Assembly: GCA_964023275.1 (NCBI GenBank)
Contig: OZ029916.1
Coordinates: forward strand, 17,252,150 to 17,316,149
Length of the DNA: 64,000 nt
Direction: 5' to 3'
DNA from: Norana najaformis
Lineage: Eukaryota > Annelida > Clitellata > Crassiclitellata > Hormogastridae
The notes below the pieces were generated by a model, which did not search any database, was not told the origin of the DNA, and saw only the letters and a program-made list of their open reading frames with translations. Of the stretch, positions 8,552-62,358 are shown piece by piece (position 1 is the first letter of the stretch; each line of letters opens with the position of its first letter). A program made the translations under genes and the position numbers.

Positions 8552-8874
8552 AATTTTAACTTTTCAAAAATGATAAACCAGTCACTGCTTCCAACTATAC
8601 CTTACTATATCTTAGGTGCCAGTGGAATCCACATTTTAGCATAAAGTCCTAGTAAATTCTTTCTGACATGCCTATTCTTGAAAATGAGCTTCATTCATCT
8701 GCTACTGAGAAGGTGGTATCATCTGCTTGATGCCAATAAGCTTTAGCAATTTCAAGCTGCATTCAGACATAGTTTCACCATGTGAAAAATCCTTGATGCG
8801 GCAAAAGCTCGTGAACACAACAGAAGTGATTTGAACCTGCTGCACAACTAGTTTCTGATTGATCAGCTATCAAT

Positions 8875-9706
8875 ATGTCATCATGCATAAATAGTATTAA
8901 GTAAGTTGCTAACTACTTTGCAAGATTCATGATTGGCAAAAGTATACAATTTTGTGTTGGTCTGCCGTCAATCTCTCATCGTGCATAAATAGTATTAAGT
9001 AAGTTGCTAACTACTTTGCAAGATTCATGATTGGCAAAAGTATACAATTTTGTGTTGGTCTGCCGTCAATCTCTCATCGTGCATAAATAGTATTAAGTAA
9101 GTTGCTAACTACTTTGCAAGATTCATGATTGGCAAAAGTATACAATTTTGTGTTGGTCTGCCGTCAATCTCTCATCGTGCATAAATAGTATTAAGTAAGT
9201 TGCTAACTACTTTGCAAGATTCATGATTGGCAAAAGTATACAATTTTGTGTTGGTCTGCCGTCAATCTCTCATCGTGCATAAATAGTATTAAGTAAGTTG
9301 CTAACTACTTTGCAAGATTCATGATTGGCAAAAGTATACAATTTTGTGTTGGTCTGCCGTCAATCTCTCATCGTGCATAAATAGTATTAAGTAAGTTGCT
9401 AACTACTTTGCAAGATTCATGATTGGCAAAAGTATACAATTTTGTGTTGGTCTGCCGTCAATCTCTCATCGTGCATAAATAGTATTAAGTAAGTTGCTAA
9501 CTACTTTGCAAGATTCATGATTGGCAAAAGTATACAATTTTGTGTTGGTCTGCCGTCAATCTCTCATGCATAAATAGTATTAAGTAAGTTGCTAACTACT
9601 TTGCAAGATTCATGATTGGCAAAAGTATACAATTTTGTGTTGGTCTGCCGTCAATCTCTCATCGTGCATAAATAGTAATAAGTAAGTTGGTAACTAAATT
9701 GCAAGA
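8875..9706. repeat. 98-bp tandem repeat, about 8.5 copies
   Basis: GCATAAATAGTATTAAGTAA recurs at 8,885, 8,983, 9,081, 9,179, 9,277, 9,375, 9,473 and 9,568, with a degenerate last start at 9,666. The period is exactly 98 bp except for one 95-bp unit that lacks CGT. Interior units look identical, which indicates recent expansion or active homogenisation. No ORF crosses it. Confidence 0.97.
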
Positions 9707-12562: not shown

Positions 12563-13320
<758 letters not shown>

Positions 13321-45213: not shown

Positions 45214-45223
45214 NNNNNNNNNN
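45214..45223. other. Assembly gap (10 N)
   Basis: Ten unknown bases. The sequence to the right (AGAGCAGTACTAATAATTGC onward) matches 50,445 and 53,472, the junctions between TIR cassettes. The gap therefore hides the left edge of the array, and its true size is unknown. Confidence 0.99.
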
Positions 45224-45407
45224 TTCTTTGGGTTAGAGGTTTTTACAGAGCAGTACTAATAATTGCAATTTGCTATTAGGAATGCTTTGAACAGAATCTG
45301 AATATGAGGACCAGCTGATCTTTAAAGACTATCTTCTAATTAAAGTTCTTTTCATGAATTATCTGAATCAGATTCTATCTTCTAATTTTGTCTATTTCTT
45401 GTCATAG

Positions 45408-45519
45408 AACCCAGTTTGCTACATAAGCTACCTTGAGGAGGATTTAGAACTGTCAGAGGAGATTAACAGTGATCTTAATCAACATGGAATTGGAACTTTT
45501 TTCCCATGTTATGATTTAG
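45408..45519 (+). CDS. TIR cassette 1, exon 1 (SARM1-like TIR, N-terminal part)
   Basis: The acceptor TTCTTGTCATAG is directly followed by the frame NPVCYISYLEEDLELSEEIN and then SDLNQHGIGTFFPCYDL, and the donor is TTTAG|GTATGT. It enters in phase 0, because an in-frame TAG ends at the acceptor, and leaves in phase 1. CYISY..ED is the TIR box-1 strand (VFISY) and the following helix ends at the HGIGTFF strand, as in SARM1 (LHGFSVFI). It differs from the other three cassettes at 19 of 112 positions by my count. The 5' end of the host gene must lie elsewhere or in the assembly gap. Confidence 0.72.
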
Positions 45520-45727
45520 GTATGTATTGTACTTAATCAAATTTAAATGTTTATTTAGAAACTGCAACTTTTATAGCGGTGTCTTGGGAGTGGCGTTGGC
45601 AGACAACCACTGATAGGTTCTACAACCTATGTAGAGGTGTTCGACACTTAACCATCTACCAACATCTGTATTGTTTCCTATTATATTAATATTTTAATTA
45701 CAAAAAAAAAAACATTTATTTTTGTAG

Positions 45728-45829
45728 AAATTGATTCAGGTGAATCCAGATACTTGGCCATTGAACAAGGACCGATTTTTATTGCAATACTATGCCCAAG
45801 TTTTGATGACAGCTCAAACAGTGCGAAAG
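45728..45829 (+). CDS. TIR cassette 1, exon 2 (middle of TIR domain)
   Basis: After the acceptor TTTTTGTAG the frame reads (E)IDSGESRYLAIEQGPIFIA and then ILCPSFDDSSNSAK, phase 1 to phase 1. The segment D.G.....AI....IFIAILCPSF corresponds to the TIR BB-loop, second helix and core strand (SARM1: FVLVLSPG). The donor is AAAG|GTCAGA here and AAAG|GTGAGA in the other cassettes. Another phase-1 donor, TTAG|GTTATG, lies 21 nt on and would add seven residues, matching SARM1 spacing better. A strong GTAAGC donor 31 nt on would shift the frame. About 18% divergence from cassette 2. Confidence 0.68.
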
Positions 45830-45889
45830 GTCAGAGAATCGAGAACTTAGGTTATGATAGGTAAGCAAATTGAAAGAATTAAGTCTTAA

Positions 45890-46375
45890 ACTTACACGTG
45901 TTGGACACCAAAGAACTGCCAGAATGAAAATAACTTGCAATATTTTGTGAACCAACAGACACATTTTAAAACTGATTCTTTGCTCGATGGGCAACCAGTT
46001 TAATGAACGCATTGTTGGTGTAGTAAGCTGATAATTGGATGCCTTTGTCTCGGCACTGGCCTCAAAATTTTTAACAATTTTTAGTTTGTGCGAATCTCTC
46101 GGTGATCTTACTAAGAAATGTGTTATATTGGTCAGGTCTAGAGTAGCTAACGGTATTAAGACAGCATGAAGCAACAGAGACCTGATTTTACGTAGGTGAA
46201 ATTGAATGATGGTCTGCAAAGGGAGTCCAAATCTCCGTATGGCAGTAAAGAACGTTCACGGACGATTTCTTTAAGAGCCCCAAGGTGCATATGATCCATC
46301 GGGACTTAAAAACTTATTGGAGATGAGCAACGACATCTGTAATGGCCACTACTCGTGAAGTTCTGGCACGGAAAA
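45890..46375 (-). mobile_element. Antisense LINE fragment in TIR intron 2, cassette 1
   Basis: The minus strand encodes IIQFHLRKIRSLLLHAVLIP, a decayed SHKLKIVKNFEA and LNWLPIEQRISFKMCLLVHK, the C-terminal region of an L2/CR1 reverse transcriptase. The same insertion is present at the same place in all four cassettes, so it predates their duplication. The apparent ORF runs on into antisense exon 2; that part is not LINE. Confidence 0.7.
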
Positions 46376-46701
46376 TGTGCTGCAGAAAGCAGCTGTGTTA
46401 ATGCCAATTATTCTTCTTATTATTATTCTTGTAATTATTATTAATTTTTTAGGACCCAAGATACATATGGCCCTTTGGGGGTTAAAAACTTACTTATTAC
46501 TATTATTATTATTATTGTTATTATTATTATTACTGCCAAAGGTAAGTGTAATCCCTAAGGAATTAACAAAATTATTTTTATTATTATTATGGTTTTTGTT
46601 GTTGTTGCTGTTGTTTTTGTTGTTGAGGTTTGCATTGAGACAATGTATTGTGGTTCCAAATTATTTTAAACCGTAATCACTGTATGTTGCTGTTTGAACA
46701 G

Positions 46702-46878
46702 ATATTGCTGTGGCCTCAAGACTGGCAAAAGCCAGTGCTGTAATTATTCTCCAAGATTTTATTCCAAAAGGAATCGCGGGACTGCATCTGAGTTTGGAAT
46801 TCCATCACCTCATTGACAGTAGCAACTTTCGTGAGGGAACGGACATTCTCATAAACAAGATCAAGAAATATGTGGCAG
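46702..46878 (+). CDS. TIR cassette 1, exon 3 (C-terminal part, Asp at catalytic position)
   Basis: The acceptor TGCTGTTTGAACAG opens 177 nt, phase 1 in and out, ending GTGGCAG|GTAGGC. With the G from exon 2 the first codon is GAT: DIAVASRLAKASAVIILQDF, then IPKGIAGLHLSLEFHHLIDS and FREGTDILINKIKKYVAG. It aligns without gaps to the intact Glu-type copy at 55,550 and to SARM1 (EIVTAL...K.IVPII...). Asp stands where SARM1 has its NADase glutamate. The protein sequence matches cassette 4 rather than cassettes 2 and 3. Confidence 0.72.
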
Positions 46879-47143
46879 GTAGGCTTTCAGTTATTAAAAT
46901 GGTAGGTCAGCCTGATTGGTAGGGAAAAGTTCAAAATAGACCAGGTTAATTATTTGATTTGCCCATCGATAATGGATAACAACTGCATTGCTTATTATAA
47001 AGCGACCATAAAACTATTCAGACTAAACAAGTGTAAAACTTGTTGAATTATCGATGTAACCATTAGACTTTACAACGGAAGTCCGAATCATATTTATTTA
47101 TCAGTGACCGAGACATTCCCTCAAATTGAAAGCCACGGCCATC

Positions 47144-47514
47144 TGTCACGTTCCTCGTCTCACGTGTAGTCGTCGTCAGCACGTGTGTCCGGTGGTGCCC
47201 TCTGGTGTTCACTGATGGTAGCTGGAGGTGCGCCATCGGTGGGAAATTTTTCACTTGCCTGATGTGAGGAGGTGCCAGACAGGCTACTGGTGAAATGCAA
47301 GACTCGATCGAGGGAGTGTAAACTAGTTTAAAAGGGGGGAAAGTGGCTCTTTTAGTCAGACCGAGTTAGACCGAGAGAGCGACAGAGCCGCTAATCAGTC
47401 ATTGTTTGACTGTGCAGAACTGCAGTGAACTGCTGTTGAACTTTAGTTCGGTCCAAGTTACGTCTCAGTTAAATAATAAAAGACTTCTATTCGATATGAC
47501 TCGGCATCGTGACA
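47144..47514 (+). mobile_element. Probable solo LTR between cassettes 1 and 2
   Basis: A 371-bp segment begins TGTCACG and ends CGTGACA, an inverted terminal pair with the TG...CA ends typical of LTRs. It contains AATAAA at 47,475, about 40 bp before the end. Cassettes 2 and 3 lack it at the same site. The first 140 bp recur at 55,366-55,508. I could not confirm a target duplication; the right flank repeats AAAGCGACCATAAAACTATT from 47,003, implying a rearrangement. Confidence 0.5.
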
Positions 47515-47567
47515 AAAGCGACCATAAAACTATTCTATCTTCTAATTTTGTCGATTTCTCGTCATAG

Positions 47568-47679
47568 AACCCGGTCTGCTACATAAGCTACCCTGAAGAA
47601 GATGTTGAGATGTCGGAGGAGATTAACAATGATCTCACTGAACATGGGATTGCAACGTATTTCCCACGTTATGATTTAG
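47568..47679 (+). CDS. TIR cassette 2, exon 1
   Basis: Same boundaries and phases (0 to 1) as cassette 1. It encodes NPVCYISYPEEDVEMSEEIN and then NDLTEHGIATYFPRYDL. Acceptor TTCTCGTCATAG, donor TTTAG|GTATGT. Protein identical to cassette 3. Confidence 0.72.
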
Positions 47680-47885
47680 GTATGTATTGTACTTAATCAA
47701 ATTTAAATGTTTATTTAGAAACTGCAACTTTTATAGCGGTGTCTTGGGAGTGGCATTGGCAGACAACCACTGATAGGTTCTACAACCTATGTAGAGGTGT
47801 TCGACACTTAACCATCTACCAACATCTGTATTGTTTCCTATTATATTAATATTTTAATTACAAAAATAAACATTTATTTTTGTAG

Positions 47886-47987
47886 AAAATGATGCAGGTC
47901 AATCAAGATTTACGGCCATTGAGCAAGGACCAATTTTTGTTGCAATATTGTCACCAGGTTTTGATGACAGTTCAAACAGTGCAAAAG
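47886..47987 (+). CDS. TIR cassette 2, exon 2
   Basis: Phase 1 to 1. It reads (E)NDAGQSRFTAIEQGPIFVA and then ILSPGFDDSSNSAK. IFVAILSPGF is the closest match to the SARM1 core strand FVLVLSPG in the array. Donor AAAG|GTGAGA, with the same alternative donors as in cassette 1. Confidence 0.72.
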
Positions 47988-48044
47988 GTGAGAGAATCGA
48001 GAACTTAGGTTATGATAGGTAAGCAAATTGAAAGAATTAAGTCT

Positions 48045-48535
48045 TAAACTTACACGTGTTGGACACCAAAGAACTGCCAGAATGAAAATAACTTGCAATA
48101 TTTTGTGAACTAACAGACACAATTTAAAACTGATTCTTTGCTCGACGGGCAACCAGTTTAATGAACACAGTGTTGGTGTAGTAAGCTGATAATTGGATGC
48201 CTCTGTCTCGGCACTGGCCTCAAAATTTTTAACAATTTTTAGTTTGTGCGAATCTTTCAGTGATCTTACTAAGAAATGTGTTATATTGGTCAGGTCTAGA
48301 GTAGCTAACGGTATTAAGACAGCATGAAGCAACAGAGACCTGATTTTACGTAGGTGAAATTGAATGATGGTCTGCAAAGGGAGTCCAAATCTCCGTATGG
48401 CAGTAAAGAACGTTCACGGACGATTTCTTTAAGAGCCCCAAGGTGCATATGACCCATCGGGACTTAAAAACTTATTGGAGATGAGCAACGACATCTGTAA
48501 TGGCCACTACTTGTGAAGTTCTGGCACGGAAAATG
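48045..48535 (-). mobile_element. Antisense LINE fragment in TIR intron 2, cassette 2
   Basis: Orthologous to 45,890-46,375 within the array, with only scattered substitutions. It encodes LCSLNWLPVEQRISFKLCLL on the minus strand. Confidence 0.7.
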
Positions 48536-48862
48536 TGCTTCAGAAAGCAGCTGTGTTAATGCCAATTATTCTTCTTATTATTATTCTTGTAATTATTATT
48601 AATTTTTTACGACCCAAGATACATATGGCCCTTTGGGGGTTAAAAACTTACTTATTACTATTTTTATTATTATTGTTATTATTATTATTATTACTGCCAA
48701 AGGTAAGTGCAATCCCTAAGGAATTAACAAAATTATTTTTATTATTATGGTTTTTGTTGTTGTTGCTGTTGTTGTTTTTGTTGTTGAGGTTTGCATTGAG
48801 ACAGTGTGTTGCGGTTCCAAATTATTTTAAGCCTTAATCACTGTATGTTGCTGTTTGAACAG

Positions 48863-49039
48863 ATATTGCCGTGGCAGCAAGACTGGCAAAAGCGAATGCC
48901 GTAACAATTCTCCAAGATTTTATTCCAAAAGGAATCGCGGGACTGCATCTGAGTTTGGAATTCCATCACCTCATTGACAGTAGCAACTTTCGTGAGGGAA
49001 TGGACATTCTCATAAACAAGATCAAGAAATATGTGGCAG
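48863..49039 (+). CDS. TIR cassette 2, exon 3 (Asp type)
   Basis: 177 nt, phase 1 to 1. DIAVAARLAKANAVTILQDF, then the same IPKGIAGLHLSL...KKYVAG as cassette 1 except FREGMD. Nearly all differences from cassette 1 fall in the first 45 nt, around the catalytic position and the next strand; after that the two are identical apart from one codon. Confidence 0.72.
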
Positions 49040-49328
49040 GTAGGCTTTCAGTTATTAAAATGGTAGGTCAGCCTGATTGGTAGAGAAAAGTTCAAAATAG
49101 ACCAGGTTAATTATTTGATTTGCCCATCGATAATGGATAACAACTGCATTGCTTATTATAAAGCGACCATAAAACTATTCAGACTAAACAAGTGTAAAAC
49201 TTGTTGAATTATCGATGTAACCATTAGACTTTACAACGGAAGTCCGAATCATATTTATTTATCAGTGACCGAGACATTCCCTCAAATTGAAAGCCACGGC
49301 CATCTGTCGACTGACCATCAACTAACTA

Positions 49329-50455
49329 CCACATTATCTCGGGCATAGTGAACACTTTTTTTCAGAAAAAAATCTGCTCAAAGTCTGGGTGGACATTATG
49401 CATAGGAAGAAAGTAAAGTTTTAGGTAAACGCCGATTACGCGTAAAGACCACTTTTGCACTAACCAAAGGCAACAGACGAAGTTTACATCAGCTGAGATA
49501 CCTTATATTTTATTTGTTTACTTTATTTAACTTGCATGTCAGGAATCATGGGTAAGCCAAAACATCATCCACATAACTCTGCAAATGTTGAGGTCGGGCA
49601 AGCATCTACTTTATAAACCTGTTGCAGATTGATGCACTGTTCAGAAGACTGAACGGCATCACTTGAAACATGATACCATTACAGTTCATTCATTCCAAAC
49701 TGTTGTCTTGAAATACTGAAGCCGTTCCAAAACTCAACAAGGTTATCTACTTCAATAATGGTGCTGCATCCCAGTACAAAAACTCCAAAAACTTTGCCAG
49801 TCTGCTTCACTGTACCAACGATTATGGACTGGATGCTGAATGGAACTTTTTTGGTACACGTCATGGGAAGAATACCTGTTATGGGATAGGGGGCACTGTG
49901 AAACGTTTAGCCGCCAGGGCAAGTCTTCAGAGGAGCTTGGTGATCACATAATGACTTCCCAAGAGTTGTTTGACTGGTGTAGGAAGAATATCAAAGGAAT
50001 AACCTTCTTCTTTGTTCCTTCAGCTCTAGTATTGGAAGAGTCAACGGTAGTGTCTGAACGCTTTACACAATGCAAAACTATACCCAGAACCAGAGAAAAC
50101 CACCAGTATCTCAGTGTCAATTAAAGACGGCCAGAGTGTCTGGAGATTCAGACTCTACTATTACCAACGCTGGTGCATATTCACATCTACAAACAGTCAC
50201 TGCACCAGCAATCCGGGACAATATGTTGCAAGCATGTTTGAGCGAAGATGGTATCTCAAAACAATCATACAGTATGAAGAAGAGCATGACGATTATGAAA
50301 TTAAGGTTATGCACTCATGTGGGCTTGCCAAAGCTTACAGCTGGTCAGCCAGAGAAGACATCTGCTGGGTCCAAAAGATGAGCATTCTGTTTGGTGAAGA
50401 CACCAACTACAGCTTCTGGTCGACAGTATTGTCTGCTCGAACAGGGCAGTACTAA
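49329..50455 (+). pseudogene. Insertion: pogo-like end plus degenerate transposon-associated gene, copy 1
   Basis: CCACATTATCTCGGGCATAG and ~80 bp on match the inverted right end of the MITE at 4,040-4,778. Then come decayed plus-strand coding pieces: VIYFNNGAASQYKNSKNFAS, AEWNFFGTRHGKNTCYGIGG and TVKRLAARASLQR. After a frameshift these continue as MTSQELFDWCRKNIKGITFF, and after another as EEEHDDYEIKVMHSCGLAKA and REDICWVQK. I recognise this as a repetitive uncharacterised gene (AEW.FFAT.HGK...GIGGTVKRLAAR) often seen multi-copy in marine invertebrates and fishes, probably transposon-borne. It is disrupted by stops and frameshifts. Confidence 0.65.
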
Positions 50456-50603
50456 TAATTGCAATTTGCTATTAGGAATGCCTTGAACAGAATCTGAATA
50501 TGAGGACCAGCTGATCTTTAAAGACTATCTTCTAATTAAAGTTCTTTTCATGAATTATCTGAATCAGATTCTATCTTCTAATTTTGTCGATTTCTCGTCA
50601 TAG

Positions 50604-50715
50604 AACCCGGTCTGCTACATAAGCTACCCTGAAGAAGATGTTGAGATGTCGGAGGAGATTAACAATGATCTCACTGAACATGGGATTGCAACGTATTTTC
50701 CACGTTATGATTTAG
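50604..50715 (+). CDS. TIR cassette 3, exon 1
   Basis: Encodes the same 37 residues as cassette 2 (one synonymous change, TTTCCACG for TTCCCACG). Phase 0 to 1, same splice sites. Confidence 0.72.
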
Positions 50716-50921
50716 GTATGTATTGTACTTAATCAAATTTAAATGTTTATTTAGAAACTGCAACCTTTATAGCGGTGTCTTGGGAGTGGCATTGGCAGAC
50801 AACCACTGATAGGTTCTACAACCTATGTAGAGGTGTTCGACACTTAGCCATCTACCAACATCTGTATTGTTTCCTATTATATTAATATTTTAATTACAAA
50901 AATAAACATTTATTTTTGTAG

Positions 50922-51023
50922 AAAATGATGCAGGTCAATCAAGATTTACGGCCATTGAGCAAGGACCAATTTTTGTTGCAATATTGTCACCAGGTTTTGA
51001 TGACAGTTCAAACAGTGCAAAAG
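50922..51023 (+). CDS. TIR cassette 3, exon 2
   Basis: Identical to cassette 2 exon 2 as far as I can read; phase 1 to 1, donor AAAG|GTGAGA. Confidence 0.72.
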
Positions 51024-51074
51024 GTGAGAGAATCGAGAACTTAGGTTATGACAGGTAAGCAAATTGAAAGGATT

Positions 51075-51565
51075 AAGTCTTAAACTTACACGTGTTGGAC
51101 ACCAAAGAACTGCCAGAATGAAAAGAACTTGCAATATTTTGTGAACCAACAGACAATTTAAAACTGATTCTTTGCTCGAGGGGCAACCAGTTTAATGAAC
51201 ACAGTGTTGGTGTAGTAAGCTGATAATTGGATGCCTCTGTCTCGGCACTGGCCTCAAAATTTTTAACAATTTTTAGTTTGTGCGAATCTTTCAGTGATCT
51301 TACTAAGAAATATGTTATATTGGTCAGGTCTAGAGTAGCTAACGGTATAAAGACAGCATGAAGCAACAGAGACCTGATTTTACGTAGGTGAAATTGAATG
51401 ATGGTCTGCAAAGGGTGTCCAAATCTCCGTATGGCAGTAAAGAACGTTCACGGACGATTTCTTTAAGAGCCCCAAGGTGCATATGACCCATCGGGACTTA
51501 AAAACTTATTGGAGATGAGCAACGACATCTGTAATGGCCACTACTTGTGAAGTTCTGGCACGGAA
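51075..51565 (-). mobile_element. Antisense LINE fragment in TIR intron 2, cassette 3
   Basis: Same insertion as in the other cassettes. A 2-bp deletion (CCAACAGACAATTT versus CTAACAGACACAATTT) interrupts the minus-strand frame that is open in cassette 2. Confidence 0.7.
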
Positions 51566-51890
51566 AATGTGCTTCAGAAAGCAGCTGTGTTAATGCCAAT
51601 TATTCTTCTTATTATTATTCTTGTAATTATTATTAATTTTTTACGACCCAAGATACATATGGCCCTTTGGGGGTTAAAAACTTACTTATTACTATTTTTA
51701 TTATTATTGTTATTATTATTACTGCCAAAGGTAAGTGCAATCCCTAAGGAATTAACAAAATTATTTTTATTATTATGGTTTTTGTTGTTGTTGCTGTTGT
51801 TGTTTTTGTTGTTGAGGTTTGCATTGAGACAGTGTGTTGCGGTTCCAAATTATTTTAAGCCTTAATCACTGTATGTTGCTGTTTGAACAG

Positions 51891-52067
51891 ATATTGCCGT
51901 GGCAGCAAGACTGGCAAAAGCGAATGCCGTAACAATTCTCCAAGATTTTATTCCAAAAGGAATCGCGGGACTGCATCTGAGTTTGGAATTCCATCACCTC
52001 ATTGACAGTAGCAACTTTCGTGAGGGAATGGACATTCTCATAAACAAGATCAAGAAATATGTGGCAG
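51891..52067 (+). CDS. TIR cassette 3, exon 3 (Asp type)
   Basis: Same protein as cassette 2 exon 3 (DIAVAARLAKANAVTILQDF...FREGMD...KKYVAG); 177 nt, phase 1 to 1. Confidence 0.72.
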
Positions 52068-52356
52068 GTAGGCTTTCAGTTATTAAAATGGTAGGTCAGC
52101 CTGATTGGTAGGGAAAAGTTCAAAATAGACCAGGTTAATTATTTGATTTGCCCATCGATAATGGATAACAACTGCATTGCTTATTATAAAGCGACCATAA
52201 AACTATTCAGACTAAACAAGTGTAAAACTTGTTGAATTATCGATGTAACCATTAGACTTTACAACGGAAGTCCGAATCATATTTATTTATCAGTGACCGA
52301 GACATTCCCTCAAATTGAAAGCCACGGCCATCTGTCGACTGACCATCAACTAACTA

Positions 52357-53482
52357 CCACATTATCTCGGGCATAGTGAACACTTTTTTCAGAAAATAAT
52401 CTGCTCAAAGTCTGGGTGGACATTATGCATAGGAAGAAAGTAAAGTTTTAGGTAAACGCCGATTACGCGTAAAGACCACTTTTGCACTAACCAAAGGCAA
52501 CAGACGAAGTTTACATCAGCTGAGATACCTTATATTTTATTTGTTTACTTTATTTAACTTGCATGTCAGGAATCATGGGTAAGCCAAAACATCATCCACA
52601 TAACTCTGCAAATGTTGAGGTCGGGCAAGCATCTACTTTATAAACCTGTTGCAGATTGATGCACTGTTCAGAAGACTGAACGGCATCACTTGAAACATGA
52701 TACCATTACAGTTCATTCATTCCAAACTGTTGTCTTGAAATACTGAAGCCGTTCCAAAACTCAACAAGGTTATCTACTTCAATAATGGTGCTGCATCCCA
52801 GTACAAAAACTCCAAAAACTTTGCCAGTCTGCTTCACTGTACCAACGATTATGGACTGGATGCTGAATGGAACTTTTTTGGTACACGTCATGGGAAGAAT
52901 ACCTGTTATGGGATAGGGGGCACTGTGAAACGTTTAGCCGCCAGGGCAAGTCTTCAGAGGAGCTTGGTGATCACATAATGACTTCCCAAGAGTTGTTTGA
53001 CTGGTGTAGGAAGAATATCAAAGGAATAACCTTCTTCTTTGTTCCTTCAGCTCTAGTATTGGAAGAGTCAACGGTAGTGTCTGAACGCTTTACACAATGC
53101 AAAACTATACCCAGAACCAGAGAAAACCACCAGTATCTCAGTGTCAATTAAAGACGCCAGAGTGTCTGGAGATTCAGACTCTACTATTACCAACGCTGGT
53201 GCATATTCACATCTACAAACAGTCACTGCACCAGCAGTCCGGGACAATATGTTGCAAGCATGTTTGAGCGAAGATGGTATCTCAAAACAATCATACAGTA
53301 TGAAGAAGAGCATGACGATTATGAAATTAAGGTTATGCACTCATGTGGGCTTGCCAAAGCTTACAGCTGGTCAGCCAGAGAAGACATCTGCTGGGTCCAA
53401 AAGATGAGCATTCTGTTTGGTGAAGACACCAACTACAGCTTCTGGTCGACAGTATTGTCTGCTCGAACAGGGCAGTACTAAT
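52357..53482 (+). pseudogene. Insertion: pogo-like end plus degenerate transposon-associated gene, copy 2
   Basis: A near-identical copy of 49,329-50,455, duplicated together with the cassette. It shows single-base differences such as AAAGACGCCAG for AAAGACGGCCAG and one base fewer in a T run near 52,385. It carries the same frameshifts, so the gene was already dead when duplicated. Confidence 0.65.
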
Positions 53483-53629
53483 AATTGCAATTTGCTATTA
53501 GGAATGCCTTGAACAGAATCTGAATATGAGGACCAGCTGATCTTTAAAGACTATCTTCTAATTAAAGTTCTTTTCATGAATTATCTGAATCAGATTCTAT
53601 CTTCTAATTTTGTCGATTTCTTGTCATAG

Positions 53630-53741
53630 AACCCGGTCTGCTACATAAGCTACCCGGAAGAAGAAGCTGAGATGTCGGAGGAGATTAACAATGATCTCGC
53701 TGAACACGGGATTGCAACGTATTTCCCACGTTATGATTTAG
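53630..53741 (+). CDS. TIR cassette 4, exon 1
   Basis: NPVCYISYPEEEAEMSEEIN then NDLAEHGIATYFPRYDL, phase 0 to 1. Close to cassettes 2 and 3, with D-V to E-A and T to A changes. Confidence 0.72.
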
Positions 53742-53946
53742 GTATGTATTGTACTTAATCAAATTTAAATGTTTATTTAGAAACTGCAACTTTTATAGCG
53801 GTGTCTTGGGAGTGGCATTGGCAGACAACCACTGATAGGTTCTACAACCTATGTAGAGGTGTTCGACACTTAACCATCTACCAACATCTGTATTGTTTCC
53901 TATTATATTAATATTTTAATTACAAAAAAAACATTTATTTTTGTAG

Positions 53947-54048
53947 AAAATGATGCAGGTCAATCAAGATTTACGGCCATTGAGCCAGGACCAATTTTTG
54001 TTGGAATACTGTCACCAAGTTTTGATGACAGTTCAAACAGTGCAAAAG
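53947..54048 (+). CDS. TIR cassette 4, exon 2
   Basis: (E)NDAGQSRFTAIEPGPIFVG then ILSPSFDDSSNSAK, phase 1 to 1. It has EPG for EQG and VGIL for VAIL relative to cassettes 2 and 3, and shares the SF ending with cassette 1. Confidence 0.72.
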
Positions 54049-54104
54049 GTGAGAGAATCGAGAACTTAGGTTATGATAGGTAAGCAAATTGAAAGGATTA
54101 AGTC

Positions 54105-54595
54105 TTAAACTTACACGTGTTGGACACCAAAGAACTGCCAGAATGAAAATAACTTGCAATATTTTGTGAACCAACATACACAATTTAAAACTGATTCTTT
54201 GCTCGATGGGCAACCAGTTTAATGAACGCATTGTTGGTGTAGTAAGCTGATAATTGGATGCCTTTGTCTCGGCACTGGCCTCAAAATTGTTAACAATTTT
54301 TAGTTTGTGCGAATCTCTCAGTGATCTTAATAAGAAATATGTTATATTGGTCAGGTCTAGAGTAGCTAACGGTATTAAGACAGCATGAAGCAACAGAGAC
54401 CTGATTTTACGTAGGTGAAATTGAATGATGGTCTGCAAAGGGAGTCCAAATCTCCGTATGGCAGTAAAGAACGTTCACGGACGATTTCTTTAAGAGCCCC
54501 AAGGTGCATATGACCCATCGGGACTTAAAAACTTATTGGAGATGAGCAACGACATCTGTAATGGCCACTACTTGTGAAGTTCTGGCACGGAAAAT
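54105..54595 (-). mobile_element. Antisense LINE fragment in TIR intron 2, cassette 4
   Basis: Same insertion as in cassettes 1-3. It keeps MRSLNWLPIEQRISFK, the variant shared with cassette 1 rather than with 2 and 3. Confidence 0.7.
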
Positions 54596-54923
54596 GTGCT
54601 GCAGAAAGCAGCTGTGTTAATGCCAATTCTTATTATTATTATTATTATTATTCTTGTAATTATTATTAATTTTTTAGCACCCAAGATACATATGGCCCTT
54701 AGGGGCTTAAAAACTTACTTATTACTATTATTATTATTATTATTATTACTGCCAAAGGTAAGTGTAATTCCTAAGGAATTAACAAAATTATTTTTATTAT
54801 TATTGTTATGGTTTTTGTTGTTGTTGCTGTTGTTGTTTTTGTTGTTGAGGTTTGCATTGAGACAATGTGTTGTGGTTCCAAATTATTTTAAGCCGTAATC
54901 ACTGTATGTTGCTGTTTGAACAG

Positions 54924-55100
54924 ATATTGCTGTGGCCTCAAGACTGGCAAAAGCCAGTGCTGTAATTATTCTCCAAGATTTTATTCCAAAAGGAATCGCG
55001 GGACTGCATCTGAGTTTGGAATTCCATCACCTCATTGACAGTAGCAACTTTCGTGAGGGAACGGACATTCTCATAAACAAGATCAAGAAATATGTGGCAG
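54924..55100 (+). CDS. TIR cassette 4, exon 3 (Asp type)
   Basis: Encodes the same residues as cassette 1 exon 3 (DIAVASRLAKASAVIILQDF...FREGTD...KKYVAG). 177 nt, phase 1 to 1. Donor GTGGCAG|GTAGGC. Confidence 0.72.
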
Positions 55101-55365
55101 GTAGGCTTTCAGTTATTAAAATGGTAGGTCAGCCTGATTGGTAGGGAAAAGTTCAAAATAGACCAGGTTAATTATTTGATTTGCCCATCGATAATGGATA
55201 ACAACTGCATTGCTTATTATAAAGCGACCATAAAACTATTCAGACTAAACAAGTGTAAAACTTGTTGAATTATCGATGTAACCATTAGGTTTTACAACGG
55301 AAGTCCGAATCATATTTATTTATCAGTGACCGAGACATTCCCTCGAATTGAAAGCCACGGCCATC

Positions 55366-55508
55366 TGTCACGTTCCTCGTCTCACATGTAGTCGTCGTCA
55401 GCACGTGTGTCCGGTGGTGCCCTCTGGTGTTCACTGATGGTAGCTGGAGGTGCGCCATCGGTGGGAAATTTCTCACTTGCCTGATGTGAGGAGGTGTCAG
55501 ACAGGCTA
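55366..55508 (+). mobile_element. Truncated LTR fragment after cassette 4
   Basis: TGTCACGTTCCTCGTCTCAC and the next ~120 bp match the start of the LTR at 47,144. The match breaks off at GACAGGCTA, where the sequence switches to the flank of the next exon-3 copy. Confidence 0.6.
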
Positions 55509-55549
55509 TAACATATAACTTATATGTTGTTTTTTTCAATTCAACACAG

Positions 55550-55726
55550 AGATTTCTTTCGCATTACGGCTAAAAAAGCCTCTAGTGAGCGTGGTGCTGA
55601 ATAATTATGAACCAAAGAGCATCCCGGGCTTTCATTCGAGCCTTGGGACCCTTTTGTCGGTGTCTCCAGAAAGTTTCGACGAAGATATGGCACATGTCCT
55701 GGCAAAAATAAGAGAAGTGCTTGGAG
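55550..55726 (+). CDS. Solitary TIR exon 3, intact, with the catalytic Glu
   Basis: The acceptor TTTTTTTCAATTCAACACAG is strong, and 177 nt run to GGAG|GTAGGA with phase 1 in and out, exactly the size of cassette exon 3. The codon completed by an upstream G is GAG: EISFALRLKKPLVSVVLNNY, then EPKSIPGFHSSLGTLLSVSP and ESFDEDMAHVLAKIREVLGG. It aligns gap-free to cassette exon 3 (shared I, A, R, L, K, PK.I.G.H.SL, and the C-terminal helix). It retains the Glu found in SARM1 and other NAD-cleaving TIRs. No exon 1 or 2 copy precedes it, so it could act only as an alternative third exon. Confidence 0.65.
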
Positions 55727-56084
55727 GTAGGATTTCAATTATTAAAATGATAGGTAAGCCTAACTGATAGGGAAATGTTCAAAATGGACCAAGTTAATTT
55801 ATCTGCTTCGCCCATCGATAATGGATAACAACAGCATTGCTTATTATAAAGCAACCATAAAAACTATGAAGACTAAACAAGTGTAAAAAATGTTGAATTG
55901 TAGACGTAACCAATTAGACTTTACAGCTGAAACCATATTTAGTTATTTATCAGTGACCGAGACAGTCCCTCAAATTGAAAGCTACGGCCATCTGTCTACC
56001 GACCATCAACTAACTATATGATGTCTTACGTAGACTAAATTATGATTTATAACATGTTGCAGGTTATGATTTTATTAGATCAGA

Positions 56085-56290
56085 TCAGATCAGCGCCATT
56101 CATTTGTCAACTAGACAGCTCAGAGATGGCGGCTTCAACATCAATGGAATTCCAGGAGGTCCGATTGCTGGGTGCGGAACAGATGGTGGCTGATGGCTAT
56201 ACCGTCATATGGTTGGGTCCGGAGGCCTTAATCAGACAGTCAGGCGTTGCCCTGAAGGCCTTGTACCGCATGGCATCGGGTGCCGTCATC
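56085..56290 (+). mobile_element. RTE-like LINE endonuclease fragment
   Basis: CATTTGTCAACTAGACAGCT followed by CAGAGATGGCGGCTTCAACA parallels 62,528-62,640, the start of the LINE at the right end of the window. In the shared frame the latter reads RELRDGSFKIVEFQEARWLG, the start of an APE-type endonuclease. Here only ~200 bp remain, flanked on the left by AGATCAGATCAGATCAG repeats. Confidence 0.65.
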
Positions 56291-56516
56291 TTATGCAAAC
56301 CTTGCACATAACCAGTCTAGCTAAGCATATACATACATACCGTTAATCACAGGGCAAATCGCTAGTTCAGTCGAGGATCACTACAGGTTCCAAATTCTAT
56401 CGTAGGCTTGATAATTTTTGCATGTGCCTGATGTAACAGCAGTTGAAATATTGAAATTATTATTAATGTAGAAGTTATTCAATGTGGAAATTGCTGTTTT
56501 TTTTTCAATTCAACAG

Positions 56517-56612
56517 AGATATTTATCACCATATGGCTGAAAAAGCCATTAGTGATCATTGCTCTCAACAACTATGAGCCAAAGAACATCCCACGGTCGT
56601 TCATTAATGAAG
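56517..56612 (+). pseudogene. Solitary TIR exon 3, truncated (Glu type)
   Basis: After TTTTTTTTTCAATTCAACAG the frame reads (E)IFITIWLKKPLVIIALNNY then EPKNIP. This is the same type as 55,550, but homology stops around 56,612 and unrelated sequence follows to a stop near 56,703. The C-terminal strand and helix are missing, so it cannot complete a TIR domain. Confidence 0.6.
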
Positions 56613-56619
56613 CTAGCGG

Positions 56620-57600
56620 CATCTGGTCAGATCTCTATAGTGAACTCGGAGGCCATCTGCCGTCGCAATCAGAAGAGCGACGACGCTTTGAATGGAACGA
56701 TTAAGGTGGCCGTCAAAGAAACAATTGAGGACTTCACACACGGCCAGATCTGAACGAAACGGATATAAGGCCTGAGCCGAGCTTGGCTCAGTCAGGATCG
56801 TTCACGACGATGCTTAACAACAGCAGAGCTGATGCTGTGGTTCCAGATTGTCGCTGCTGAACTATTCTCTCAGTTGAACTCTCGTTACTGTGGCAGTAGG
56901 TAGACTTTCTTCGTTGTAAAGATTAGACTCTCCATAGCTGTAGTGAATAAATTATAGATACTGTACATCCTTCGCTGTTCTACAGTGTATAGGCCTACGT
57001 CACGATCTTGCCATTACAGTGAAGCAGGGTCATTTAAAGTAAGATTTCAGTTTCGACTCGGAGATTACAAAGTAGTCCTTCAATGAACCACACTCATCCG
57101 CATCCAACGTAAAACTGTCGAAAATAGAACGTTCTCGCCTTTACATGTACATCCTGCGCCACAGTCGTCTGCTGGAGCAGTGGCTTCCATTCAATTTCAC
57201 TTAGTCATGCAGCATAAACATATTTATCATTACTGCCATCATCTGTGAAATAATGGCCGATGATCAAAATTTGCATTGTCAGCAGATTTAGTTTCTGCCA
57301 GTTTTTGCTTCGATATAAATCCTTCGTCATCACACATCAAATCCTCATAACACTACGGTAATATATAACTAAGCTGGCCACTAACTTCAAGCTTCTTTAT
57401 CACACTACTGTATATGCTGACCTGCTTAACATGTAATCATACTTATGCACTTGTCACTAAAACTCAGTCTCTTTATATACACAAAACCTTTCACATAACC
57501 AATCTAGCTAAACAAATACATACATACCATTAAGCACAACAGTTGATATTGAAATTATTATTAATGTAGAAGTTATTTAAATCGGAAACTGTTGTTTTTT
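56620..57600. other. No gene recognised between the solitary exon-3 copies
   Basis: Nothing coding was supported. The stretch 57,480-57,600 repeats the flank seen before 56,517 (CATAACCAATCTAGCTAAAC, TTATTAATGTAGAAGTTATT), showing that the solitary exon was duplicated with several hundred bases of flank. Confidence 0.5.
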
Positions 57601-57614
57601 TCAATTCAGCACAG

Positions 57615-57790
57615 AGATTTCTTTCGCAATACGGCTAAACAAGCCTTTGGTGTGTGTGGTGCTCAATAATCACCAGCCAAGAAGCATCCCGGCCTTCACT
57701 CGGGCCTTGGGACCCACTTACCAGTTTCTGAAGAAAGTTTTGATGAATAAATGGTGCATGTCATGGCTAAAATAAGGGATGTACTTGGAG
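57615..57790 (+). pseudogene. Solitary TIR exon 3, broken (Glu type)
   Basis: Starts (E)ISFAIRLNKPLVCVVLNNH like 55,550. A single-base shift near 57,690-57,720 and a TAA after FDE interrupt the frame; the remaining KIRDVLGD is recognisable in another frame. The flanking introns match those of 55,550 (GATAGGGAAATGTTCAAAATG). Confidence 0.65.
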
Positions 57791-58200
57791 ATAGGATTTC
57801 AATTATTAAAATGATAGGTAAGCCTAACTGATAGGGAAATGTTCAAAATGGACCAAGTTAATTTATCTCCTTCGCCCATCGATAATGGATAACAACTGCA
57901 TTGCTTATTATAAAGCAATCATAAAAACTATTAAGACTAAACAAGTGTAAAAAATGTTGAATTGTAGACGTAACCAATTAGACTTTACAACTGAAACCAT
58001 ATTTAGTTATTTATCAGTGACCGAGACAGTCCCTCAAATTGAAAGCTACGGCCATCTGTCTACCGACCCTCAACTAATTATATGATGTCTTACGTGGACT
58101 AAATTATGATTTATAACATGTTGCATGTTATGGTTTTATTAGATCAGATCAGATATATATGCAAATATTCAGTCAAAATTATTGTCTGTTGAATCTGCAG

Positions 58201-58262
58201 ATGTTCCGCTTGTTCCTCCGCCTTTGCCATCGCCTCCACCACCACCACCTCCACCATCTATG
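58201..58262 (+). CDS. Proline-rich exon following the TIR array
   Basis: The acceptor TTGTCTGTTGAATCTGCAG and donor ATG|GTGAGA bound 62 nt. Entered in phase 1 they read (D)VPLVPPPLPSPPPPPPPPSM and leave in phase 0. The phase-1 entry matches the phase-1 exit of every TIR exon 3, so this is the natural next exon: a flexible or WW/SH3/EVH1-binding linker behind the TIR domain. The phase-0 exit then points to further exons beyond the window or lost to the LINE insertions. Confidence 0.55.
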
Positions 58263-58964: not shown

Positions 58965-61900
58965 CACTGGGAACTCTTCGCAGAGGTGAAACTGAAGCTC
59001 GGCGCGTCAACAGTTGGTGGATGATGGAATGGCTTTCAGTATGGAGGTTAGCTGCGATATAAGCGAGAACCTCTAGGGAATAAGCAGTCCAGGAGCAACA
59101 GTGACACCTCTATCAGGTTGTGGTGGGCTGGTGAGCGGTCTCACTACTTTATTCAAATGCAGACACCCAACTACGGAGCTGTGACCTGACGAGCACAGGT
59201 CACCAGTCACTAAGCTTGGCCTCAAACTTAGTGAATGGCTACTGGATTACATTGGGAGAAGAGGAAGGGAGACAACACGTATAGAAAATCTGGTAGAGTG
59301 ATATGCCACAAGGGCGCATTAGATTATTTATAAACAGAAAGTCATTTACCCATGCTTTTCTGGTGAGAGGCTGGGGTATCTCTTAGCCCATGATTTTTCT
59401 ATGATTTGCAGTAAAAGATATTTCATACATCATCGCTTGGCATCCTCATCGTCCGCTCGCTCGGAAATAAATCCTCTTCAGTGAAGGAACTAATTGTTTC
59501 CTCTAACTTCGACGTCTTCTGTGCGATTGAGACCTGGCATGAAGCCAACAACTCTCCGTCACTAATCCTGTCAACCCCTGACGATTACCACTGCTTCAAC
59601 CAGCCATGGCCACTCGGTCCAGATGAGAGTCGTCTGCTTGGTGGAATTTGTCTATTCCACAATAAAACCCTCTGTGCTACCAAACATGAACTAGGAAGGT
59701 TCACCTCCTGCACCTTCGAGCGTCTTTCCATTAGTATCATTTCCGTGTGCAAACAACTTCTGGTTGTTTGCCTTTACCGCCCTGGCTCTGACAGAGTAAC
59801 ACCCACCTTCTTCAGTGAGTTCTCAGAGTCCCTTTCACACCTATCTGTACTCTGTCAGCCTGTCTACTTACTCGGTGACCTAAATATACACCCAGACAAT
59901 GCTGATCTACCCGACACAGCCATCATTACTTGTCTCCTTGATTCCTTCTCTTTTGTTCAGCATATATCTGTACCGACTCATACCAGAGGCCACACACTTG
60001 ATGTCCTCATCACACCTACAAATGTATCCATCCATAACCTCTCTGTCTCCACTCCCAGCCTCTCTGATCATTCATTGATCAGCTTCAACATTGGTAGACA
60101 CACTATGTCATGAGCTTATGATGTTGTGAAACGCCGATGCTTCACTCACTTCAATCATGCTGCATTCACCGAAGACCTCCTCAACACTGAACTCTTTCAA
60201 TGGCCTCTTCACCTCAATTATCTGAGCAATCGTGTGAACCCAAGCAAGCTTTTCTACTCTATAACTCCAGGCTACAACACCTTCTGATCAACATTCTCCA
60301 CTACGCACCATCAGGATACGGCCAAGAGCAGGATGCCCATGGTTTGACGGTGAATGCTCAAAGTCAAAGAGATTAACCAGAAGACTCGAAAGACTGTATC
60401 GCCGCCTGAGAACTATTGAAACCCGAGAAGCCTGGATTAAACAAATCAACCAACGTCATCTTGACCAGAACAAGCATGCTGATTTCATACATAAACGACT
60501 TGCCGATTCAGAGGGAAGCAAAAGCACCTGGAACATTCTGAACGCACTTCTCCATCCAGTTCCTCCAGACTGCCAAGCCGGCACACCTGATGAATTGTTG
60601 CAATTTTTCCTAGATAAAGTTAAACTTGTTAGAGATAGCACTGTCAGTTCTCCCCCTGGCCTATTTGTTCTCACCACAACCTCAGTATCTACCCTTGAGC
60701 CTGTGACTCCTGACTTTGTCACTGACTTACTAAAGAAATCTACTTCCAAACACTGTGCACTTGATCCTGTCCCTACATGGCTTCTGAAATCACAACCTCA
60801 GATCTTTGCTATTATCCTAGCTTTCCTAATTAACCTTTCTCTTTCTACTGGCATACTTCCCTCCTCTCAGAAGTGGGCAGCTATACGTCCTCGTCTTAAG
60901 AAGAGTGGTCTCGATCCCACACTCTGTTCTAACTATAGACCTATCTCCAATGTTCCTTTCTTGTTTAAGCTGATAGAGAGAGTTGTCCATGCACAACTCT
61001 ACTCTTACCTCTCTGCAAACAGTCTGCTCCCAACCCTCTAGTCAGGCTTCAGGCAATTTCAATCCGCAGAAACAGCTATCCTGAAAGTCTATAGCGATCT
61101 TGTCCTTGTCGCTGATAAGAGATATGTGACTGCCTTAATACTCCTTGATTTTACCACTGCTTTTGACTGTGTAGATCACTGCATCCTATTCAAAGTCCTG
61201 CAACAGTCTTTTGGTATCTTGGGTAAAATACTTGACTGGTTTGTCTCCTACCTCTCTAACCGTACTCAATACGTTCGTATCGGCTGTCTCTCGTCATTCA
61301 TCTTTGCTGTGCTCTTCGGTGTCCCACAGGGTTCCGTCTTAGGCCCACTACTGTTCATCCTTTATACCTCAGCACACAGCACTATCAACCATCGCCTCTC
61401 GTCATGGCGTAGAAATCCACCTTTATACTGATGACACCCAACTTTATGTACACCTCCGGCTACAAGAAGCCCTTGATGCCACAAAGAGGCTCCGTGCCTG
61501 CATAGATGAAATTATCCTATGAAGTCTGTCTATGTGCCTCGAACTTAACCCCGACAAATCCGAGCTTATCTGGTTTGCCAGTTCCTCTAAATTCCTACAA
61601 TCCACTGAACTTCTTTTCCCTACTTCCTCCTCCTTACCCTCCCCATCCTCTGCTGTCCGGGATCTTGGAATCATGCTTGACTCAACACTCTCTCAAACCT
61701 CACATAGCTGCAGCTTCTTGAATATGCTTGTTTCACCTCAGAACGATCGACAACTTCGCTCTAGATTCAGCATCGCTGAAATTGCTAATATGCAGCCTTA
61801 TACTTACAAGACTTGACTGTTGCAACTCTATACTGTATGGTCTTCCTGAGTGCACACTTCTTCCCCTAACTAAAATACTACATCAGGCTGCAAGACTGTG

Positions 61901-62358
61901 TCTTGGACTTTCATCATGAGATCACATCACTCCTGCCCTTTGTTCTCTACACTGGCTTCCAGTATGTGACTGTATCTGCTTCAAGCTGGCTCTCTTCATG
62001 TTCAAAGCATGTTCAAATCATCTGTCATCCTATTTATTATCCACGGTTACACCTTGTAACTCTAGAGGCCGATCCTTTCTTCGGTCAGCATCTGCTGGAA
62101 AATATGTTGTTCCTCGCACACGTCTTGTCTTTGGCCCGCGTTCGTTCACAGTTGCTGGTCCCTCCATCAGGAACTCTCTACCTCCTTATGTTCGTGACTC
62201 TCCTACTGAGGCTATCCTTCGCTCTAACCTTAAAACTTATCTCTTCCAGTCTGCTTATGGTTCTTAATACTTTGCATAACCCGGCTTCTAGTGTACTTCT
62301 GAACTTTGTAAGGAGGGCATTAACAAATTTTAATTGTATTGTATTGTATTGTATCGCT
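58965..62358 (+). mobile_element. L2/CR1-like LINE, nearly full length but inactive
   Basis: The 5' region at 58,965-59,330 is shared with 26,279-26,640. From about 59,430 an APE endonuclease reads IRSLG-like start, FDVFCAIETWHE, LVVCLYRPG, VYLLGDLNIH, TRGHTLDVLIT and SDHSLISF, ending in a stop at 60,113. The reverse transcriptase follows in pieces: DPVPTWLLKS, SNYRPISNVPFLFKLIERVV, LLDFTTAFDCVDHCILFKVL, GVPQGSVLGPLLFILY, then YTDDTQLY in another frame, and the C-terminal RSFTVAGPSIRNSLPPYVRD. The end is TTTTAATTGTATTGTATTG, a TTGTA repeat tail. A TAG at 61,039 and several shifts break it. Confidence 0.9.

Follow-up and report, generated by a model that had tools for sequence, protein, structure and literature searches.

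A tandem array of TIR exons in Norana najaformis in which many copies differ more in their exons than in the introns around them

A 64,000-nt stretch of the annelid Norana najaformis (contig OZ029916.1, here C4, positions 17252150-17316149, within an assembly of 608 Mb in 17 contigs; hereafter the window) carries a tandem array of three-exon cassettes whose exons, when joined, code for a diverged TIR domain. Contrary to the usual rule, many pairs of copies diverge far more in their exons than in the introns around them. On the evidence of the sequence, the C4 array may well be an expanding array of internal TIR exons belonging to a single gene family, with all but the exons kept alike. The features of the array, numbered from the first nucleotide of the window, are as follows.

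45214..45223, no strand: assembly gap of 10 N, just before the array
45408..45519, + strand: cassette 1 exon 1, A type (112 nt, phase 0 to 1; 19/112 differences against cassette 2)
45728..45829, + strand: cassette 1 exon 2, A type (102 nt)
46702..46878, + strand: cassette 1 exon 3, alpha type, Asp at the catalytic place (177 nt)
47568..47679, + strand: cassette 2 exon 1, B type
47886..47987, + strand: cassette 2 exon 2, B type
48863..49039, + strand: cassette 2 exon 3, beta type, Asp
50604..50715, + strand: cassette 3 exon 1, B type
50922..51023, + strand: cassette 3 exon 2, B type
51891..52067, + strand: cassette 3 exon 3, beta type, Asp
53630..53741, + strand: cassette 4 exon 1, B-prime type
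53947..54048, + strand: cassette 4 exon 2, B-prime type
54924..55100, + strand: cassette 4 exon 3, alpha type, exactly the same as cassette 1 exon 3
55550..55726, + strand: X1, lone intact third exon with Glu at the catalytic place (177 nt, phases the same as in the cassette third exons)
56517..56704, + strand: X2, third-exon-like copy, only its first part alike, with a stop codon at the end
57615..57790, + strand: X3, dead third-exon copy with a frameshift, an in-frame stop and a lost GT donor
58201..58262, + strand: proline-rich exon, accepting phase 1 as left by the intact third exons

The four cassettes were all found where the first-pass annotation of this DNA had placed them, with exons of 112, 102 and 177 nt, AG/GT at every border and distances of 2160, 3036 and 3026 nt between the starts of successive first exons. 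When the exons are joined (391 nt), one frame is open in 4/4 cassettes and both other frames contain stops. The joined cassette begins in phase 0 and ends in phase 1, so that splicing of exon 3 to the first exon of the next cassette would be out of frame. The acceptor TAG stands in frame directly before exon 1, which is therefore taken to be internal; no exon upstream of it could be recognised in the repeated unit. With arrays of the Dscam type this one shares tandem homologous exons of matching phase. In the four-copy families of 300-nt segments the identity to the reference copy is 82-100%, much more than chance would give. The annotation had also counted three third-exon-only copies; three exist, but X1 alone is intact, X2 being partial and X3 dead. 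The proline-rich exon that it had put after the array is present with a fitting frame (phase 1), and proline-rich stretches follow two of the third exons of a C9 paralog too.

The array continues beyond the window with five more cassettes, the first of them 1.3 kb past the window end, giving nine cassettes in total, of which six are distinct in DNA and four in protein. All 27/27 exons of the nine keep their size, frame and splice sites, and no further convincing TIR exons were found up to 50 kb beyond the window. These five form a second array. The 7.2 kb at 45224-52382 is a perfect match to its beginning (from C4:17317262, 19.9 kb downstream), with 2 differing columns before 52500, and the identity begins right after the 10-N gap. 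The identical block possibly reflects a block duplication of very recent date or else a duplication introduced in assembly, and part of the cassette copy number may be due to the latter.

The inverted relation between exons and introns is well illustrated by cassettes 1 and 2, which differ at 19/112 sites in exon 1 and 18/102 in exon 2, as against 2/206 in intron 1, 27/872 in intron 2 and 1/250 in the stretch that follows exon 3. The synonymous divergence (dS) of exons 1 and 2 taken together is 0.57 and the nonsynonymous divergence (dN) 0.12 (Nei-Gojobori). With intron 1 plus the first 300 nt of intron 2 as the reference in Fisher tests, exons 1 and 2 exceed the introns between cassettes 1 and 2 (37/214 versus 11/506, p 2.7e-12), cassettes 1 and 3 (38/214 versus 16/504, p 1.7e-10) and cassettes 1 and 4 (42/214 versus 9/505, p 8.2e-16). 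A similar excess is seen in third exons. X1 and X3 differ at 35/176 sites in the exon and at 8/290 in the downstream flank (p 1.4e-9), while the cassette third exons differ from X1 and X3 by 51-57% in the exon and by 12-17% in the downstream flank (8/8 pairs). The four pairs of cassettes that differ in exon 3 do so at 9/177 sites, against 0-4/250 in the next 250 nt. Within exon 3, the differences of cassette 2 from cassettes 1 and 4 fall mainly at the beginning (8/44 of the first sites and 1/133 of the remaining ones).

The pattern of exons diverging more than introns holds at three loci on three chromosome-size contigs, C4, C9 and C10, with a different part multiplied at each: cassettes and third exons at C4, third exons at C9 and first exons at C10. 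Across the whole genome the Pfam profile TIR_2 gives at least 66 six-frame matches, many of them clustered; X1 and a C9 third exon used as queries found matches only in C4, C9 and C10. The C9 locus (C9:23935000-23974999) contains an exon 1, an exon 2 and three copies of exon 3, of which two have the full 177 nt and one is truncated by a stop. Its third exons a and c differ at 39/177 sites (dS 0.91, dN 0.13, p 2e-11), with 0/100 differences just upstream, 4/300 upstream and 8/194 downstream; the pairs a-b and b-c differ at 34/116 and 31/116 sites, each with 0/100 upstream. At C10 (C10:2500000-2517999, minus strand) there are five first exons, one with an in-frame stop, together with one second exon, a broken third exon and remnants, and no intact third exon was found in 22.5 kb. 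The first exons there exceed their flanks in 7/10 pairs (p about 0.001 or less); in the pair 9159-6389, for example, the exon differs at 18/109 sites, the nearest flank at 0/105 and the whole flank at 17/300.

Four control TIR clusters of the same genome lack the inversion. In the cluster on C8 the exon lies below the flank in 15/15 pairs (6 of the 7 matches listed were taken), on C1 in 1/1 pair and on C3 in the 3/3 pairs with a real flank alignment, three further C3 pairs having only 9-12 aligned flank sites. On C14 it lies below in 4/6 pairs and slightly above in 2/6 (2.2 versus 1.9% and 1.4 versus 1.2%, that is, by at most 0.3 points). At C8 and C14 some of the flanking sequence is itself coding, being part of the same open frame. 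For the C10b pair no flank could be aligned, and the locus L037 was left out of the control.

Taken together, exons are 17-33% different in many pairs (51-57% in the comparisons of cassette third exons with X1 or X3), with dS from about 0.5 to 1 or more, and the aligned introns 0-17% different, often being identical right beside the exon. Third codon positions are enriched among the substitutions (18/37 between cassettes 1 and 2, 22/39 between the C9 third exons a and c), and where dN/dS could be computed for inverted pairs of C4, C9 and C10, it was about 0.1 to 0.25. Since the exon changes are mostly silent and dN/dS is low, the exon variants are old, were functional and diverged under purifying selection. 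The segments of a cassette also tell different histories: cassette 1 stands apart in exons 1 and 2, cassettes 1 and 4 go together in exon 3, and cassettes 2 and 4 do so in intron 1. These groupings disagree, and the cassettes have therefore exchanged parts. The proposal of a diversifying locus with interchangeable parts is supported by the exon-confined divergence and the discordant genealogies, albeit by a different route from the one the annotation had envisaged.

How could introns remain younger than the exons that they separate? The explanation we favour, with middling confidence, is that gene conversion homogenises the introns while selection keeps the exon variants, probably for innate immunity. 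Gene conversion together with unequal crossing-over would homogenise introns between copies, and conversions overwriting an exon would be selected against, distinct TIR variants being useful to the animal, probably in its innate defence. We infer such an innate-immune role from the presence of a TIR domain, from the expansion and from the diversity that has been maintained. In the predicted transcripts, one upstream exon would be spliced to one cassette, or to exons 1 and 2 of a cassette followed by X1, and then to the proline-rich exon; alternative use of the cassettes is suggested by their phases, by the flanks that they have in common and by repeated units in which no upstream exon was recognised.

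Several observations weigh against homogenisation by conversion. Exons 1 and 2 show no significant excess in the pairs of cassettes 2-3, 2-4 and 3-4 (p 0.29, 0.14 and 0.15), and 3/10 C10 pairs have no exon excess, one of them with 1.9% in the exon versus 7.1% in the flank. Cassette exon 3 is not above its 290-nt flank in 6/6 pairs, a flank that in some copies runs up to where an inserted element joins it. Between the cassettes and X1 or X3 the 25 nt upstream are unlike (9/24 or 14/25 differ). It would be demanding for conversion to be repeatedly confined to a 206-nt intron between two exons, and a dS of about 0.6-1 would normally make introns unalignable, which is hard to reconcile with homogenisation. 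In addition, X3 is dead and yet inverted, so that selection on it must predate its death.

The sharpness of the borders, with 0/100 differences upstream of three C9 exons whose proportion of synonymous differences (pS) is 0.53-0.60, is better explained by a transplant, in which diverged exons of another TIR gene or haplotype would have been written into young copies. Recombination with reverse-transcribed spliced RNA is a possible route, as its homology to the locus would lie only inside exons and the borders would thus be exon-sharp, and a LINE with reverse transcriptase and endonuclease matches adjoins the array. However, recombination with cDNA usually removes introns, which are kept here, and no donor of the A-type exons was found elsewhere in the assembly, all 18 matches listed lying inside the C4 array. 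We regard a transplant as possible, if on the doubtful side. The high synonymous divergence beside young introns could also be produced by hypermutation targeted to exons and followed by purifying selection, a combination that was reportedly once proposed for conopeptides. This is very improbable here, since the spectrum is mixed, with transitions and transversions over all base pairs, and mutation restricted to adenine or to C-to-T is absent from it; a mutator that would stop at both splice sites is not known to us.

Could the assembly itself have created the pattern, haplotype duplicates or a mixed consensus giving rise to false copies and false exon differences? The 10-N gap before the array and the identity of 45224-52382 to the second array would be in keeping with this. 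Such an artefact could raise the copy number; it would not easily yield divergence in exons only, and the inversion recurs at C9 and C10, where the stretches read contain no N, and is absent in the four control clusters, which makes an artefact improbable as the general explanation. It is also unlikely, though somewhat less strained, that the cassettes, instead of being alternatives of one gene, are left over from a number of small, independent TIR genes or pseudogenes. The cassettes do lack a known upstream exon or promoter, and broken exons occur (X3, one C9 third exon, 1/5 C10 first exons and the C10 third exon). Against this, the in-frame TAG before exon 1 and the lack of an upstream exon in the repeated unit make a shared upstream exon the simplest arrangement, all the cassette exons are intact, and dN/dS is below 1 in the pairs that differ.

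The assignment to the TIR family, made by the annotation from motif order, was upheld by profile searches of the joined exons against Pfam TIR_2 (PF13676, curated cut-off 28 bits). Cassette 2 scores 31.7 bits (E 2.4e-7), above the cut-off, and cassettes 1 and 4 score 24.9 and 25.4 bits (E 3e-5 and 2.1e-5), below it. Taking X1 as the third exon raises the scores to 40.9 bits with cassette 2, 34.4 bits with cassette 1 and 34.3 bits with cassette 4, the last hybrid also including the proline-rich exon. The C9 paralog matches strongly, with 63.1 bits across the full model. In tblastn searches with a hybrid protein the best annotated matches were bacterial TIR proteins in plasmids (best E 4e-5). 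PADLOC gave a weak SAVED_TIR match (best 8.4e-4, 2/4 members) and NCBIfam was weak as well (best 0.051).

The annotation had taken SARM1 for the closest relative, which the structure comparisons do not bear out. A family profile of seven sequences (three from window exons, one of them with X1 as the third exon, two from C9 and two partial ones from C10) matched TLR15/TLR2 TIR domains at 3.1e-7, Cat1 at 1.7e-6 and flax L6 at 3.3e-6, with SARM1 well behind at 0.013. The window proteins alone matched no TIR structure among the solved structures at E up to 10, and the TIR domains of the window are therefore highly diverged. The C9 protein alone matched 26 chains at E up to 10, some of them non-TIR; the best was a TIR named ADP-ribosyl cyclase (0.0094), and SARM1 was absent among the 26. 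Likeness to the SARM1 TIR domain thus extends to the TIR profile and to an alignable position of the catalytic Glu, and the family differs from it in this lower rank, in the Asp of the cassettes and in the accompanying domains: no ARM or SAM domain was found in six-frame Pfam scans of nearly the whole window, scans in which short exons can be missed and which missed the TIR exons themselves. These scans covered the window apart from 47601-48999 and 50501-54999 on the + strand, 49201-52500 on the - strand, about 12901-13300 on both strands and at most about 100 nt around the gap.

The C9 paralog carries SPNYDDCTWCEKELGFAV, a WCxxE motif with the catalytic Glu in helix C, and alignments with plant TIRs and Cat1 place the catalytic Glu at the first residue encoded by exon 3. 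The codon of this residue is split by the intron, exon 2 contributing G and the third exon either AG (Glu, in X1) or AT (Asp, in the cassettes). Asp stands in place of the catalytic Glu in 9/9 cassettes, and Glu is found in X1 and in the C9 exons. This Glu is required for NAD cleavage in plant TIRs and in SARM1/TIR-1 (PMC9153377, PMC10121217). The NAD-cleaving activity suggested by the annotation is thus doubtful for the cassettes with their Asp, X1 having the Glu. Because the intron splits the codon, it is the third exon that would decide between Glu and Asp. The choice of third exon would accordingly give either a Glu TIR, possibly an NADase, or an Asp TIR, probably a scaffold, a decoy or an altered enzyme, and splicing could in this way switch catalysis. 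If the choice of a Glu or an Asp third exon is indeed made by splicing, an animal gene would here have a direct means of toggling TIR enzymatic output. A wider and rather speculative extension is that the loci might form a library of TIR exons, in which ancient variants are held in arrays, like introns ease their exchange, TIR halves are recombined and splicing toggles the catalytic Glu/Asp.

The pattern seems to be that of the primate L/M opsins in a stronger form. Those genes (PMC3213168) are likewise tandem copies whose exons, including synonymous sites, differ more than their introns, and in gibbons this is explained by gene conversion acting in introns and by selection against such conversion in exons. 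The synonymous divergence there is 6.1-6.4%, in contrast to 0.5 to 1 or more here, where small internal exons of a multi-locus TIR family are concerned. With Dscam (PMC3236188) the array shares tandem homologous internal exons, their mutually exclusive use being presumed here; Dscam differs in encoding an Ig domain instead of TIR and in reportedly showing no sign of gene conversion between paralogous exons. In the snake venom genes described under the name ASSET (PMC2711939), exon segments also change radically between gene copies, whereas here most of the changes inside a TIR exon type are silent and dN/dS is low, and no toxin is involved. In the literature searched, which mostly leaves subscription papers outside, no description of TIR with tandem or alternative exons was found. 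With introns younger than exons and synonymous divergence near 1 at three loci, the family offers a strong natural case for the study of selection versus gene conversion.

Right after the array, at about 59415-62267 on the + strand, lie LINE-like reading frames (Exo_endo_phos 9.5e-12, RVT_1 5.5e-16), positioned from the reading frames and from likeness to a C9 frame, as the Pfam tables name no member. In the six-frame Pfam scans of the window, only the reverse transcriptase and endonuclease of this LINE were matched with confidence. The first 20 kb of the window contain a weaker RVT_1 match (3.7e-4), and the weak names New_glue (5.8e-4) and Ribosomal_L28 (0.0041) were taken as chance. Searches for RNA families and tRNAs found none. 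In the C9 region the Pfam scan of the + strand gave no family above the cut-off; Deoxyhypusine synthase (7e-6) and DUF4844 (7e-5) came just under the Pfam cut-offs in the first 2 kb of C9:23945000-23954999, no stretch of theirs passing by itself.

Inside the array, copies of a mobile-element-like reading frame stand at 49748-50124 and 52775-53151, between cassettes 2 and 3 and cassettes 3 and 4, carried along by the duplications; two pieces searched against Pfam gave no match. A 371-nt segment at 47144-47514 with the inverted ends TGTCACG/CGTGACA resembles a solo long terminal repeat and is partly shared with the end of cassette 4 (from about 55366). The intronless stretch 56062-56310 looks by eye like a decayed TIR in two frames, neither of which has a Pfam match. 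Pieces of intron 2 recur at many places in the genome. Farther upstream in the window there are a tandem repeat at 8870-9706 (98-nt unit, 8.6 copies, 98% matches) and a perfect 4-nt microsatellite (CTGC, 83 copies) at 12916-13248.

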